Positions 12,688 through 19,200 of a stretch of DNA of 43,828 nucleotides are shown here, in pieces. Origin of the DNA: Desulfobulbaceae bacterium (GTDB taxonomy: Bacteria; Desulfobacterota; Desulfobulbia; Desulfobulbales; VMSU01); assembly GCA_015231515.1 (NCBI GenBank), contig JADGBM010000013.1:1-43828 (forward strand), read 5' to 3'. The translations under genes were made by a program, and so were the position numbers. Under the pieces are notes generated by a model. That model saw nothing but the letters and a program-made list of their open reading frames with translations, was not told the origin of the DNA and made no database searches. How positions within the stretch are numbered: the first letter of the stretch is position 1; every line of letters begins with the position of its first letter.

Positions 12688-13443
12688 ATGCCGAAACTAA
12701 TTGCTATGGCTGGTAAGGGAGGGGTTGGCAAGACTACAATAACCGCCCTGCTTATCAAATATATGGTCGAGAACAAACTGACCCCTATTTTAGTGGTCGA
12801 TGCCGATCCCAATACTAACTTAAATGAGCTCCTGGCTTTAGATGTGCGGACGACCATTGGCCAGATCCGTAAAGAGATAAAAGGTGAGATACCAGCACAC
12901 ATGAGCCGTGACCAGTATATGGAGATGAAAGTGCACCAGTCGCTTATCGAGGAGTCCGGTTTTGACCTGATGGTCATGGGTCAACCTGATGGCCCAGGCT
13001 GTTATTGCGCCGCCAATCAGTTTCTGTCCATGACCATGGATCACCTGACCGACAACTACAAATACATTCTGGTGGACAACGAAGCAGGCATGGAACATTT
13101 GAGCCGCATGAATCTTACCCTTATTGACCACCTTCTGGTTATCTCTGATCCTTCCGCTCGTGGCATCATGACTGCTGGCCGAATTTCTGAGATAACCGAG
13201 CCCTTAAAACTTGATGTTCGAAACAAAAAACTTATCGTCAACCGCGTACCAGACCCTGAACCGGAACTGCTCATTGCTAAAATCAATGAGACCGTTGAAC
13301 ACTCCGGCCTGCAGTTGGGCGGCCTTCTTCATGCCAGCCCTGAATTGGTTGAGCAGGAGCTGAGCGGCGGATCATACCTTGAACTGAGCAGTGATATACC
13401 GGCAATCAAAGAGGCCTATAAAATATTTGATTCTCTATTCTAA
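12688..13443 (+). CDS. cooC: CooC-family nickel-insertion ATPase
   Basis: Predicted P-loop ATPase that helps load nickel into carbon monoxide dehydrogenase or acetyl-CoA synthase. The 251 residues begin with the deviant Walker A AGKGGVGKTTI, then VVDADPNTNL. The family Cys-x-Cys pair is present in GPGCYCAAN (Cys105, Cys107), which in CooC binds metal at the dimer interface. LVDNEAGMEHLSR is the Walker B/switch region. A good GGAG site precedes the ATG. No CODH gene lies in the window, so the client is unknown. A related MinD-like ATPase with another client is possible. Transcription likely ends at the hairpin at 13534-13572. Confidence 0.85.
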   Translation: MPKLIAMAGKGGVGKTTITALLIKYMVENKLTPILVVDADPNTNLNELLALDVRTTIGQIRKEIKGEIPAHMSRDQYMEMKVHQSLIEESGFDLMVMGQPDGPGCYCAANQFLSMTMDHLTDNYKYILVDNEAGMEHLSRMNLTLIDHLLVISDPSARGIMTAGRISEITEPLKLDVRNKKLIVNRVPDPEPELLIAKINETVEHSGLQLGGLLHASPELVEQELSGGSYLELSSDIPAIKEAYKIFDSLF

Positions 13444-13598: not shown

Positions 13599-16565
13599 CT
13601 AGCGCTTGATATTAATGAGGTCATTTAGCATATCATCAGTTGTGGTGATAATTTTTGAGTTAGCCTGAAAACCACGCTGCACAGTTATCAATTTAACAAA
13701 TTCGGTTCCCAAATCTACATTGGACTGTTCCAAAGCATTCGGCGCTATCGACCCTAAACCGTTTGATCCCGGGGCGCCTGTCACCGGCGCACCTGATTGG
13801 GTCGTTTCAGAGAAGATATTGCCACCCTCTTTCCGCAGTCCTGCCAGATTACTGAAATTGGCCAGAGCCACCTGGGCCTTTTTCAAGACCTGCCCGTTTG
13901 AGTAATGCCCGGTAATAACCCCTTCCACATCCACGGAAACTGACTGCAAAAAGCCAGAAGAAAAGCCGTCTTGATCCTGAAAAACAGTCGTTGAGCTATT
14001 GGCGTACTGAGTTGAAGAAAGTGCCTCAGGCTCAAAATTGATGGTCACCACATCTCCGGACTGACTGCCATCCTCGCTGCTTATATCGGCGGCAATAAAT
14101 TCAAAGGAACCCATGCTTGCAGAGGCAGGTGTTGCACCAGCAACATCTGTCACGGTGGTCCATGCCCCGAAAATATCATGCTGAAAATCCACTTCCGTTG
14201 CTGGAGCAATTAATGCTGCAACTTGAGCTGCGGTATAGCCATAGGTTATATCAACAGCGCTTATTCCAAGTTGACTTACAGACGAAACTGTATCAGCTGT
14301 TCGCTCAGTCAATACAAGACGACCGGCATTATCAATTGAGGCCTCACAATCAAAATCACTTTCAAGTTGGTCTAACATACCCTGCACTGTTTTTGGCGGT
14401 GCCGCACCTGTATCGATAACATAGGTGCTTGTTATAGAAGAGCCATCTGTCTTTGTACCGGAAAAGACAATACTGTCGCCATCGTTTACTCCCCTGGGAA
14501 GACCACTATTTACGGCTGACGCACTGTTATCATCATAGACACTGTCCCACTGGGTTGTTGCGGAAATAACTGTTGAGTCACCAGTATTTGTACTAAAGGC
14601 CCGCCCTGGCGAATACACCATTCGTTTCGAAGTAGTTATGTTAATTTGCCCTTCAACAGTATCAGCCTTTACCAAAGTAGTTGCGGCGGCATTATCGATA
14701 AGGCCCCAGGGGTTTGCTGTGCTGGCCCCAACAGCATTATCATACGCTACCGTGACCTCAAGCACTGTCGATTGAGTTACATCAATCACCCGGATATTTC
14801 CCGTAGAGTCCAGCACAGCCTTAACGGTAGAACTTGCCACGGGAGGTGAGCCTGCTGTCCCATCAGCATAAAGATCCGACAAAAATGTTAACAGGTCACT
14901 AATCGTATCACCCACGCCTACAGTAAAGGTCCGCGTTGGATCTGCCACATTTGCAGCAAAAGCTGCCGACCCATCCACAGGCCTTCCTGAAAAGGCAAAC
15001 GTGTCACCCACACCAATTAACTCTGTATCTGTCCCCCGCAACCCAATCAGAGCTGTAGAGGAATCGGTCACTACCGTCGTTCCATTACTGGTAATTCCAG
15101 TGCCTGTTTTAGAATAGGTATTTACATTTGTCTGATATGCACCTCCCCAGGGCGTTGCATTATTGCCTGATATTGTCTCAAAACGAGTGATATACAGACT
15201 TGAATCACCAGAGGTATTATCACTGAGCTTCAGACGACCAGCTGAGTCAATCGAGGCAGAAACACCAAACGTATTTTCAATCTGGGTCAGCATGTCACCA
15301 ATGTTTTTGGTTATGTTGACAGTATAGGTGAGGCGATTCGCCACATCGGAACCATTATCGTAGCCTTCAAAGACAAACATATCCCCTTGAACAATCGTGT
15401 TACCGTTCGAGTCCGCTACATTACCCCAGGTAGTTGCTGAGGTTACAGCTGAAGACACAGACCCACCGGCAGCCAGAACGCGGGCCCCGGAATCACTTAC
15501 TAATATCTGGCGTTCAGTCGTGCTGAGACCCTCATAGCGCCCACCAAAATTTATTTCAACCTGCTGATTTGTTGTATCACCGGTGAAGTTGCTTGGAAAT
15601 TTATAATACGAATCCCCAGCCTCAAGTAAAAGACGATTATCATTTTTGGCCGGATCAACAAAGCCATCTGGCGGAACAGTGAAGGCATCAACCTGAGTCA
15701 GGTTTCCAGAGGTATCAAACTTAATTGTGCCGTAGAGAAGGGCTCCTGCCCCTTTATGATTTTCGTAATTATACCGAGTATCAGGATTATAAATAACTTG
15801 TTCAGCAGCGCTTAATATCCGTAAATCTTCACTGGGGTCACAGGTTATAAGATACTCCCACTCATTATCATTGACTGTACGATCATAAAATATCGAAATA
15901 TCATGACTGGCACCCTTTGAGTCGTAAATCTTGATGGCAGTAGTATAATCATATTTGGTCGAATCAATCGGATCAGAGGGATTAACCGCCGCCGCATTTG
16001 TCCCGTTCCAGTTTGCAAACAGTCGATCTTCGCTTGTCTCGTTGCTCTCCCTTGAGTCTAGGTTCGCTATAACTTCAATAGTCTGAGTAGCAACAGGTGG
16101 GGTATTGGTGCCAATGCCAATATCGCCAATTGTTCCTTCGCGCTCACCGGTTTCAGTAGAAACCTGCCAGCCCTGCACAAAATTACCGACTGGAGTGATT
16201 AAAAACCCTTCCTTATTAAAGCGAAATTCACCCGCCCTCGAATACTGGTCTGCCTCAGTGCTGTCAGCCGCACGCAGCATAAAAAATCCCTGACCGCCAA
16301 TAGCCAGATCGGTTGCCGTTGATGAACTCTCAAAGGAACCCTGGGCAAAAAGCCCGTCAATGGCGCTTAACGTTACACCGCGACCAACCTGGGCCGAACC
16401 AGCGGCTGTCGATACCGACTGCGACAAAACATCCTGAAATGTTGAGCGGCTTGACTTGAAGGCTACTGTATTGACGTTGGCAACGTTATCGCCCAACACT
16501 GTCATTGCCTCTCCCATAGTGCTTAGCCCGCTGATACTTGCATACAAGGAACTTGAAACTCCCAT
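13599..16565 (-). CDS. flgE: Flagellar hook protein FlgE, enlarged
   Basis: Subunit of the flagellar hook, exported by the flagellar type III system. The N-terminus (SLYASISGLSTMGEAMTVLGDNVANVNTVAFK) and the C-terminus (EFVKLITVQRGFQANSKIITTTDDMLNDL) are the D0/D1 segments of hook proteins. DLAIGGQGFFML is also typical. At 988 residues it is more than twice the roughly 400 of enterobacterial FlgE. The extra mass is residues about 365-790, which hold three related units (near 375-475, 500-620 and 665-775). Each unit has a GD.F.F(S/E)G stretch, and units 1 and 3 also share a (S/A)SID.AGRL.L stretch. It is the last gene of the fliK-flgD-flgE run. Confidence 0.95.
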   Translation of the reverse strand: MGVSSSLYASISGLSTMGEAMTVLGDNVANVNTVAFKSSRSTFQDVLSQSVSTAAGSAQVGRGVTLSAIDGLFAQGSFESSSTATDLAIGGQGFFMLRAADSTEADQYSRAGEFRFNKEGFLITPVGNFVQGWQVSTETGEREGTIGDIGIGTNTPPVATQTIEVIANLDSRESNETSEDRLFANWNGTNAAAVNPSDPIDSTKYDYTTAIKIYDSKGASHDISIFYDRTVNDNEWEYLITCDPSEDLRILSAAEQVIYNPDTRYNYENHKGAGALLYGTIKFDTSGNLTQVDAFTVPPDGFVDPAKNDNRLLLEAGDSYYKFPSNFTGDTTNQQVEINFGGRYEGLSTTERQILVSDSGARVLAAGGSVSSAVTSATTWGNVADSNGNTIVQGDMFVFEGYDNGSDVANRLTYTVNITKNIGDMLTQIENTFGVSASIDSAGRLKLSDNTSGDSSLYITRFETISGNNATPWGGAYQTNVNTYSKTGTGITSNGTTVVTDSSTALIGLRGTDTELIGVGDTFAFSGRPVDGSAAFAANVADPTRTFTVGVGDTISDLLTFLSDLYADGTAGSPPVASSTVKAVLDSTGNIRVIDVTQSTVLEVTVAYDNAVGASTANPWGLIDNAAATTLVKADTVEGQINITTSKRMVYSPGRAFSTNTGDSTVISATTQWDSVYDDNSASAVNSGLPRGVNDGDSIVFSGTKTDGSSITSTYVIDTGAAPPKTVQGMLDQLESDFDCEASIDNAGRLVLTERTADTVSSVSQLGISAVDITYGYTAAQVAALIAPATEVDFQHDIFGAWTTVTDVAGATPASASMGSFEFIAADISSEDGSQSGDVVTINFEPEALSSTQYANSSTTVFQDQDGFSSGFLQSVSVDVEGVITGHYSNGQVLKKAQVALANFSNLAGLRKEGGNIFSETTQSGAPVTGAPGSNGLGSIAPNALEQSNVDLGTEFVKLITVQRGFQANSKIITTTDDMLNDLINIKR

Positions 16566-16658: not shown

Positions 16659-17315
16659 TTACTTAACTTTAATAATGTCTGAAACTCCGGCCTCGATGGA
16701 GTCATCCAAAATCATGCTGACGATGCCACCTTCAAAATTTATTCCCGTAACTTTCCCCGTCGTGCGGTAGTCAACATCAACAATCTCACCGGTTGATTTC
16801 ATTGCCTTCACCTTGTACGTGTATGGACCGTCTTTTACCTGATTGCCGGCCAAATCAAGACCATCCCATTCAATTTCATAGGTCCCAGGGCCCTGACGAC
16901 CTTGAGTATCCTGCCAAACGATATGATCCCCGACATCATAAATCTCAACTACTACGCTTTCGGCATTATCGATTAGAACAAACTCTGTCGGGTTAGCCTT
17001 TCCATCTACCACACCAATCGAATTACCGGAGATCTGTACTTCGCTATCAAGCAGAGTTAGGAGTTGCAAATTATTCTGTGAGGTCTGGTATTCGAGGAGT
17101 TTTTCCATATTCTCGCTCATCTGCATCGTTGCTTCCATGTTACTGAACTCTGCAAGCTGTGAGGCCATCTCGTAACTGTCCATGGGCTTCATAGGATCTT
17201 GATACTGCAACTGGGTTATGAACAGCGTCATAAAGTCACTCTTCTGAAGATCCTTTTGCCCTACAGCATCTTTAGGCTGCACTAAGGCTGACTGTGTAAC
17301 ACCTGTAATTGACAT
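16659..17315 (-). CDS. flgD: Flagellar hook-capping protein FlgD
   Basis: Scaffold that caps the growing hook and is then discarded. The 218 residues include the conserved N-terminal stretch KSDFMTLFITQLQYQDPMKP followed by MASQLAEFSNMEAT. Further on are a tudor-like and an FnIII-like region (GPGTYEIEWDGLDLAGNQVKDGPYTYKV). Length and order match FlgD. It lies between fliK and flgE, with a long hairpin in the fliK-flgD gap. Confidence 0.96.
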   Translation of the reverse strand: MSITGVTQSALVQPKDAVGQKDLQKSDFMTLFITQLQYQDPMKPMDSYEMASQLAEFSNMEATMQMSENMEKLLEYQTSQNNLQLLTLLDSEVQISGNSIGVVDGKANPTEFVLIDNAESVVVEIYDVGDHIVWQDTQGRQGPGTYEIEWDGLDLAGNQVKDGPYTYKVKAMKSTGEIVDVDYRTTGKVTGINFEGGIVSMILDDSIEAGVSDIIKVK

Positions 17316-17354: not shown

Positions 17355-17414
17355 AGTGCCTTTCGCAGAGTATTTTCTTGTAAAAAAAAACAAGAAAATA
17401 CTCTGTAAGGCACT
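17355..17414 (-). promoter_or_regulatory. Long AT-rich hairpin between fliK and flgD
   Basis: The minus strand contains CAGAGTATTTTCTTGT, nine T, then its exact complement ACAAGAAAATACTCTG, giving a 16-base perfect stem. AGTGCCTT and AAGGCACT extend it beyond a small internal loop. It begins two bases inside the fliK stop codon and ends about 40 bases before flgD. The U-run is in the loop and not after the stem, so it is not a standard terminator. A role in mRNA processing or stability is possible. Confidence 0.7.
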
Positions 17415-19200
17415 AAACGAAAAGGCTGATTGTGCCGCCCTGGTTCATCTGGACGTACCGTTCTCCGACCGTGCCCATAGTCTCATTTGGCAGACCACCG
17501 TCTTTTTCATGTCCGGTTTGGGCCACCAATCTCTCCCAAGCCTCTTCAAATCGCTGCCTGGCATCATCGGAGTTATTCTGCTGATCAACAGACACAAAAC
17601 AGTCTTGCAAAGAAAATCCCTGCCTATTGAGGTTATCTTTAAAATCCTGCATGGTACTTTCAAGCGCTTCCTTGACTCGGGAGTTCTGCATTACAAAGGA
17701 GACTGATATGTGACTCTCCCTGATCTGCATGTCGACCTTGACCTCGCCTAGCTCTTTTGGATACATCGTTAAGGTGAGTTGATGCAGATTATTGCGCAAC
17801 CCCCGCATCACGCCTTGAGAAATCTGATCCATAGCAAACTGTTGCATTTCAGGAGCAAGCCTTACACGTGTCAGTGGTACACGCGGTTCAGTCAAGGTTG
17901 TCTGCTGCTCTGGAACCGGCTGCGCTTCCTGGGTGCCTAAATGCGAGATGAAGCTCTTCGATTGATTGCCGTCCGTATTCTGCAAACTGCTCGGCAAAAG
18001 TTCTTCTTCAACCGCCTGGTCAGATGAACTCGGCGTAAAATCCGACAGATTCATCTGCGACTTCTCTGCGCCCTCGATAACAACTTTTTTACCAGAGTTT
18101 AACCAATCACTGGCAAGCCCCTCTTCGATGGTTCGGGTCTCCGTGACTTTTTCAATTTTAACCTTAGCAAGATCAACCATCTTCTGGAGTTCCCGGTAGA
18201 CAGTAGACATCGATTCCTGGACCACCGGTGTCCAACCAACATCCTTACCCTCAAAACCGGCCTGGGAAAGCATCCCCTTAAGCTCGTCAAGAAAGCCCGG
18301 CACGTTCGCTTTTGCTTTAGCGGTGTCTGCGTCTGCTATGGCCTGTTCCAAGAGATTTTTAAGTCTCTCAACAGACAACTGCACGTCTGCATCTGCAGTA
18401 GCCAGACCAAGTGCCTCTAAACTCTTTCTCAGCAGAGCATTAGCCTCTGGAAAAAGATCATGCAGGCTTTCTTCCGTCATACCGGCCTGAGAGAGCATGC
18501 TTTGTAACTGTTCAAGTTCCCAACTGGAGAGGGTTACCCCTTGCTTGTTCTCACCAGCCAGCTGTTCTACGCCCTTCAGATAAGCAATCAAATCCAATTC
18601 ACTCAAGCCATTGACCGCCTTATCTGATAAAGCAGATACCTGTTCAGCAGATATTCCCATTTTTGCGAGCAGGGTCTCCAGGAATGCAACATTCGTTTCC
18701 GGTACGGTGACCTGGAGATCAGTATTCAACATTGAAAAGTGTTTTTCCAAGGCCGCAAAAAGATCAGTCAGTCCGAGGCTTCCCTGCTCTGCCATCTGTT
18801 TTTTCAAGAGAGCGAGTTCAGCATCATCCATACCGGCAAAGGCTGCTAATTTGTCCAGCATATCCGAACCTTCAAGGGTCCACTCACCGGCCTTGCTATT
18901 AGTATCATCAGCAAGCATTTTTTGAAGTTCAGCCATTAAACCCTGAAGATATGTTGCTTCTGTCTCTTCAGGTTGCACGGATTCGGCTTTCGCTGGTTCA
19001 GGTGCCCGTGTCGTTTTCTGGGGGGCAGTTTTTTCCTGGACCCCGAGCATAGCCCTTTTTTCTCTTTGCTCAGTGCGGATTTTCTTATCCATATAATTGG
19101 AGAATGAAGCTTCTCGATCCGGCTCTATCTGGCCCTTTTGCTCAGGTGCTTGTGCAGGCGACAGAGACTTTGATATGGGGGGCATCATTATGTTGGCCAC
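17413..19200 (-). CDS. fliK: Flagellar hook-length control protein FliK
   Basis: Secreted molecular ruler that ends hook growth and switches export specificity. The C-terminal domain (about residues 445-545, with LHQLTLTMYPKELGEVKVDM and the LNRQGF segment) is the conserved FliK/Flg_hook domain. The 595 residues exceed the 405 of the Salmonella protein. The N-terminal part is Gln/Glu-rich, then has a recurring helical motif L..(L/M)L...G.....(L/V) near residues 114, 174, 232 and 307. The GTG start is chosen because GAGAGG lies eight bases upstream. A sigma-54 promoter precedes it at 19322-19337. Confidence 0.92.
   Translation of the reverse strand: MANIMMPPISKSLSPAQAPEQKGQIEPDREASFSNYMDKKIRTEQREKRAMLGVQEKTAPQKTTRAPEPAKAESVQPEETEATYLQGLMAELQKMLADDTNSKAGEWTLEGSDMLDKLAAFAGMDDAELALLKKQMAEQGSLGLTDLFAALEKHFSMLNTDLQVTVPETNVAFLETLLAKMGISAEQVSALSDKAVNGLSELDLIAYLKGVEQLAGENKQGVTLSSWELEQLQSMLSQAGMTEESLHDLFPEANALLRKSLEALGLATADADVQLSVERLKNLLEQAIADADTAKAKANVPGFLDELKGMLSQAGFEGKDVGWTPVVQESMSTVYRELQKMVDLAKVKIEKVTETRTIEEGLASDWLNSGKKVVIEGAEKSQMNLSDFTPSSSDQAVEEELLPSSLQNTDGNQSKSFISHLGTQEAQPVPEQQTTLTEPRVPLTRVRLAPEMQQFAMDQISQGVMRGLRNNLHQLTLTMYPKELGEVKVDMQIRESHISVSFVMQNSRVKEALESTMQDFKDNLNRQGFSLQDCFVSVDQQNNSDDARQRFEEAWERLVAQTGHEKDGGLPNETMGTVGERYVQMNQGGTISLFV

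Follow-up and report, generated by a model that had tools for sequence, protein, structure and literature searches.

The window, meaning the whole stretch of 43,828 nucleotides that was analyzed (contig JADGBM010000013.1 of a Desulfobulbaceae bacterium), contains an ORF of 988 codons that fills exactly positions 13599-16565 of the minus strand. This gene, flgE, forms the end of a flagellar run that also comprises flgC, fliE, fliF, fliJ, fliK, flgD and a probable flgB. The hook-related genes of the run are:

13602..16565, minus strand: flgE, 988-aa flagellar hook protein (stop codon at 13599-13601)
16659..17315, minus strand: flgD, hook cap protein (PF03963 and PF13860), directly upstream of flgE and codirectional with it
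17413..19200, minus strand: fliK, hook-length control protein (PF02120, E 2e-17)

Between the flagellar run and ileS, a gene encoding a CooC/ParA-like P-loop ATPase (12688-13443, plus strand) is read in the opposite direction.

The predicted protein contains the Pfam building blocks of FlgE in their usual order: Flg_bb_rod (residues 7-37), D1 (88-148), FlgE_D2 (185-354 and a second stretch) and Flg_bbr_C (943-986). The respective families (PF00460, PF22692, PF07559 and PF06429) each scored above the cut-off and define the D0/D1 terminal regions and D2; the PF07559 match at residues 185-354 spans positions 1-125 of the 142 in the profile. The first-pass annotation had called the D0/D1 ends normal, and this order of domains agrees with it. 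The best NCBIfam FlgE equivalog gave 298.9 bits, short of its cut-off of 400; these models describe FlgE proteins without the insert present here. The subfamily model TIGR03506 was passed (279.4 against 70.25). The protein was assigned as FlgE on the basis of its domains and genomic context and, judged by its sequence, is the main hook protein of a Desulfobacterota lineage. A plasmid search returned partial matches alone (about 40% of the query), with identity below 60%.

Three IN-like units in the D2 insert

Alignment with Salmonella FlgE revealed an insert of ~470 residues near the C-terminal end of D2, seen as a gap between Salmonella residues 217 and 258. The following parts of the protein were distinguished:

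16116..16565, minus strand: N-terminal D0 helix and D1, residues 1-150, ordinary; D0 modelled with low confidence
15486..16115, minus strand: N-terminal part of D2, residues 151-360 (PF07559 match at 185-354)
14067..15485, minus strand: insert in D2 with the repeat units, residues about 361-833; a gap in Salmonella FlgE and missing in zero-unit relatives
15126..15482, minus strand: unit 1, IN-like domain, residues 362-480 (unit HMM E 2e-38; pLDDT 89.5, pTM 0.83)
14682..15104, minus strand: unit 2, residues 488-628, absent in two-unit relatives (unit HMM E 8e-18)
14211..14603, minus strand: unit 3, residues 655-785 (unit HMM E 5e-33)
13956..14210, minus strand: end of the insert, low-confidence linker and C-terminal strands of D2, residues 786-870 (Pfam, AlphaFold)
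13602..13955, minus strand: C-terminal part of D1/D0, residues 871-988 (Pfam; identity to relatives)

The three units had been noticed earlier as degenerate internal repeats, and this observation was borne out. In pairwise comparisons (1000 shuffles), units 1 and 3 scored 117 against a shuffle maximum of 71, and units 1 and 2 scored 77 against 66; units 2 and 3, taken as a single pair, were not significantly similar (score 54, equalled in 45 of 1000 shuffles). When profiles built with relatives were compared using hhalign, all three pairs were clear, with probabilities of 99.4% (units 1 and 2), 99.8% (units 1 and 3) and 99.1% (units 2 and 3). A single unit HMM found exactly three domains in the protein, with the E-values listed above. 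All of the motifs quoted in the first-pass annotation were located, i.e. TTWG (residue 378), TQWDSV (671), GDMFVF (394), GDTFAF (520), GDSIVF (696), LTQIE (426), LDQLE (731) and ASID.AGRL (437 and 742).

The units evolve faster than the core. They share 47-53% identity with four FlgE proteins of the same family, against means of 79% for the N-terminal D0/D1 part and 92% for the C-terminal D1/D0 part, which fits an exposed surface.

An AlphaFold model of the 988-residue protein, built with 51 sequences, had a mean pLDDT of 81.6 and a pTM of 0.66, the D0 regions being poorly modelled. All three units were predicted with high confidence as one beta-beta-alpha-beta-beta-beta domain, with the same order of elements in each rather than unrelated folds; unit 1 modelled alone with 91 aligned units reached the values given in the list. 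The best structural neighbour of the unit was a junction chain of Campylobacter jejuni, 9gsx_A (Z 7.3, rmsd 2.6, 113 aligned residues), followed by C. jejuni FlgK (5xbj, Z 6.3), domains D2-D3 of FliD (Z about 5) and FliC (4nx9, Z 4.4). Almost all of the nearest solved folds thus belong to outer domains of axial flagellar proteins, at middling Z-scores of 4-7; Foldseek E-values were weak (best 0.24). The unit sequence profile also matched 9gsx_A (E 8e-6), which makes this chain the best match by both sequence and structure. It is a 750-aa filament-type protein with flagellin ends rather than a hook protein, and its record is named Flagellin; we regard it as FlgL, since 11 FlgL subunits are reported in the paper describing the entry, as is a bulky domain of FlgL (PMC12221982). 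The structures 5jxl, 5az4 and 5npy were not among the fold matches listed for the unit model, an absence that does not prove a different fold. A viral structure library gave no useful match for the insert.

A domain family close to the units is Flagellin_IN (PF07196), present in FliD, flagellins, FlgK and FlgL. It weakly matches residues 397-449 of the full protein (8.2 bits, cut-off 22.7) and unit 1 alone (15.5 bits), and units of some relatives reach E 1e-4. Since the scores of the protein studied here lie below the cut-off, the units are called IN-like and not assigned as members. The pattern GD-x-strand-helix-AxxD-G-L-L is common to both, although the Flagellin_IN motif comprises 55 residues against about 120 for the FlgE unit. 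The outer domains of FliD and FliC probably belong to the same fold class, and the modelled unit resembles Flagellin_IN-type outer domains in fold, at the Z-scores given above.

The first-pass annotation had suggested that the units might bind carbohydrate or other cells, i.e. that they are adhesive or ligand-binding domains shown on the hook. Flagellar outer domains can serve adhesion in some other bacteria, and the units have a predicted exposed position and evolve rapidly, as noted above. However, no carbohydrate-binding or adhesin family was matched in Pfam, the nearly invariant columns are limited to a few G, L and D residues, which are of a kind that is usually structural, and the closest matches in fold are outer domains with a structural role, in FlgK, the junction chain, FliD and FliC. 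Nor does adhesion predict the co-variation of FlgK (see below), a protein that meets the hook end to end. We consider a binding role highly improbable.

Unit number and origin across the order and phylum

FlgE was sought in 58 genomes representing the window's own genome, its family and its order, and a match was found in 47. These proteins share a conserved core, while the insert varies in steps: FlgE of 415-493 aa lacks the insert altogether (no unit), a second FlgE paralogue of 617-636 aa carries one unit, proteins of 774-828 aa carry two and those of 919-988 aa carry three. One genome (G032) encodes a four-unit FlgE of 1040 aa, and partial matches suggest a fourth unit in the FlgE of another (G047) as well. 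The hook protein of the window is near the top of this range and its size is ordinary for the lineage. Units 1 and 3 are present in every large FlgE of the order's main clade.

Several genomes encode more than one hook protein. The one-unit paralogue of ~630 aa (L042:3489-5390, minus strand, and L056-L065) occurs mostly in genomes that also have a FlgE with two to four units. Two 493-aa paralogues without the whole insert (L047 and L048) fall within the two-unit clade of the core tree, a position that suggests loss of the insert. Genome G024 has two large hook genes, one with three units (L014, C23) and one with two (L039, C62), as well as two FlgK/FlgL pairs, one of which lies beside the three-unit hook gene.

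In a tree of FlgE units only, the unit-2 domains of all three-unit proteins group in one clade (0.987) that adjoins the unit-1 domains, and unit 3 stands apart. Because the units group by position across families, the duplications are old, and a recent tandem duplication within this gene was ruled out. In the tree of the FlgE core, three-unit proteins are scattered among two-unit ones and six gains or losses of unit 2 are required. This scatter points to an early origin of unit 2 as most likely, followed by several losses or transfers. The FlgE core of genome G008, for instance, lies inside the three-unit clade of its family (support 96-97), yet this protein has two units.

The same domain is not confined to hook proteins. 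When 395 genomes of the phylum were searched with the unit profile, 63 gave a match. Within the window's order the domain was found in FlgE-type frames only, with none elsewhere at E 1e-3. Other families of the phylum carry it in FliD (one to three copies) and FlgK (one to three), and single occurrences were found in a flagellin and in a FlgE from outside the order; nine examples were confirmed with Pfam. FliD units matched the FlgE-unit profile at E-values down to about 1e-28. Some of these filament caps are themselves very large: in other families, FliD proteins of 1020-1190 aa (L149-L153, L157, L161, L162 and L188) contain two or three FlgE-unit domains.

These matches bear on the origin of unit 2, which could have been inserted from a gene for the FliD cap instead of being duplicated within FlgE; the units would then be a mosaic, which is compatible with a function in an outer shell. 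FastTree placed all unit-2 domains among the N-terminal units of FliD (0.955-0.97), the grouping of unit 2 with FliD was not rejected in an AU test (p 0.47), and profile scores of unit 2 to unit 1, unit 3 and FliD units are nearly equal. On the other hand, a mixture-model tree, the best obtained, separates the order's FlgE units from the FliD and FlgK units by a branch (97/91), and in this order FlgE is the only carrier of the domain. A sister relationship of units 2 and 1 was best in the FlgE-only tree (0.981); the wider tree did not recover it, and an AU test did not reject it (p 0.24). We rate origin from FliD as the less probable alternative, although one of some weight.

The earlier view that the outer hook surface was built by domain duplication is thus retained in part. 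One domain has been multiplied, with duplication in situ best supported for units 1 and 3, and this is not peculiar to the gene in the window. For unit 2, duplication in situ agrees with the best tree, and the AU test did not reject the grouping with FliD. Duplication alone does not account for a family that also turns up in FliD, FlgK and a flagellin in other parts of the phylum; its spread indicates that modules moved between axial proteins; judging from these sequences, exchange is needed at some point, whichever origin of unit 2 holds.

Junction proteins and the proposed role of the units

In the window's genome the junction proteins are also very large (ORF lengths of 972 aa for FlgK and 1478 aa for FlgL). 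FlgL (L091:325-4758, minus strand, contig C11) contains at least four copies of a module of ~120 residues, marked by NGGxxNSI at positions 313, 429, 724 and 946. This module is also found in the adjacent FlgK (residues 380-560 of FlgK against 610-774 of FlgL, score 267, shuffle maximum 101). The FlgE units do not belong to the same sequence family as these modules, as no pairwise score was significant and no HMM match was obtained. Flagellins of very different size are encoded in the same genome: one of 286 aa (C32), an 833-aa frame with two Flagellin_IN matches (L138, C63) and a further one cut by the end of a contig (L139, C69).

Across the order, giant FlgK and FlgL accompany a FlgE with units, and small ones a FlgE without. 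Trimmed FlgK lengths fall into three classes of 459-476, 826-870 and 933-965 aa, the smallest being found in all eight genomes with a zero-unit FlgE. The largest class is due to a module of ~110 residues (at about 585-700 in FlgK of the window's genome, L091:4731-7646, minus strand), which in members of the order is either wholly there or wholly missing. The module occurs in 7 of 11 sets with at least three FlgE units and in 1 of 21 two-unit sets (Fisher p 0.0007, without correction for kinship); a plain comparison of trimmed FlgK lengths between two- and three-unit FlgE gave p 0.054. Length contrasts of FlgE and FlgK calculated on trees were correlated (r 0.61-0.63, p 1e-4 to 2e-4), and independent pairs number only three to six, so that a pairs test cannot reach significance. 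Genome G008 lacks both unit 2 of FlgE and the FlgK module and is nested among relatives with both, an apparent co-loss. The sequences thus suggest that the FlgK module tends to accompany unit 2 of FlgE, over few independent events. For FlgL, the size trend beyond the contrast between zero-unit and unit-bearing FlgE is weak (contrast p 0.05-0.2).

We propose that D0, D1 and D2 form an ordinary hook tube, as their conservation suggests, and that the three IN-like units near the C-terminal end of D2 make up a third, outer layer of this tube. The insert lies within D2, which in an ordinary hook subunit is the outermost part, so the units are most likely a further outer layer; this radial layout is putative, the model having an overall pTM of 0.66 and poorly modelled D0 regions. 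By analogy with Campylobacter, such a layer would add FlgE-FlgE contacts, making the hook thicker and stiffer. A change of hook stiffness, already envisaged in the first-pass annotation, is plausible in the light of the D3/D4 domains of that genus (PMC5097172, PMC5069557). The domain itself belongs, as its sequence shows, to a pool of modules that lineages of the phylum use in FlgE, FlgK, FliD and sometimes the filament, and it was multiplied inside FlgE in this order, with unit 2 later lost or gained. FlgK and FlgL, seen to co-vary with FlgE, may have grown alongside so that the adjoining surfaces still fit, and the simplest explanation of their growth is that they had to match a thicker hook end. 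Taken together, a stiffening outer shell of FlgE units, drawn from a module pool and matched by growth of the junction, is in our judgement the probable explanation.

The changes in unit number could instead reflect neutral or antigenic drift, with the units as tolerated ornaments that are gained and lost by recombination, perhaps in escape from phages or grazing, and have no mechanical role. The tree, with at least six changes of unit 2 and one lineage that has a fourth unit, would suit this, as would the fast evolution of the units, and the variability of C. jejuni D3/D4 has been partly ascribed to antigenic selection (PMC5097172). Drift does not, however, account for the retention of units 1 and 3 throughout the large FlgE proteins of the main clade, for the co-variation of FlgK with FlgE (contrast r about 0.6, p about 1e-4) or for the breakage of flagella when the analogous C. 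jejuni domains are lost (PMC5097172). It is an unlikely explanation, and a structural outer shell remains the one that we prefer.

A possible modular coat and the Campylobacter hook

On a broader scale, the flagellar surface in this phylum might be a modular coat, in which IN-type modules are duplicated and exchanged among FlgE, FlgK, FlgL, FliD and the filament, and their copy number is jointly adjusted in neighbouring proteins, which would keep hook and filament surfaces in register. We put this forward tentatively, as an idea with somewhat less than even chances. Outer domains of FlgE and IN-type repeats are already known kinds; in the open-licence literature no description was found of this FlgE architecture, of the series from zero to four units or of a domain shared by FlgE, FliD and FlgK. 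Hooks have to be flexible yet unbreaking, and how they are tuned is understood in very few species. Relatives with 0, 1, 2, 3 or 4 units provide a natural dose series in which outer domains can be set against hook stiffness and diameter. As the FlgK module is partly in step with FlgE, the series also offers a test of whether adjoining parts of a nanomachine have to change jointly, which has been proposed for one species, in Campylobacter (PMC5691160).

The closest known parallel to this architecture is the FlgE of C. jejuni (5jxl, 5az4), also a giant protein, of 851 residues in 5jxl, in which D0-D1-D2 are conserved and D2 carries inserted outer domains. There, D3 and D4 add contacts between subunits, and their deletion leaves stubs in more than 90% of cells (PMC5097172); D3-D4 moved into Salmonella gave a wider hook and near-normal motility (PMC5069557). 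The likeness extends to the junction, as FlgK is structurally different and FlgL large in the same organism, and both have been argued to fit the thicker hook end (PMC5691160). The two inserts differ in position. C. jejuni D3-D4 enter D2 before the IYDSxGxxH strand (Salmonella T167/P168) (PMC5069557), whereas in the window FlgE this strand (residues 208-247, aligned to C. jejuni residues after D3/D4) precedes the insert, which corresponds to Salmonella residues of about 217-258. In addition, D3/D4 were reported to have no structural relatives in the PDB, while the units described here resemble IN-type outer domains. Homology to D3/D4, whose structures are missing from the fold list of the unit, appears unlikely given the different insertion site, and the two extended-hook designs appear, from their points of entry into D2, to have arisen independently.
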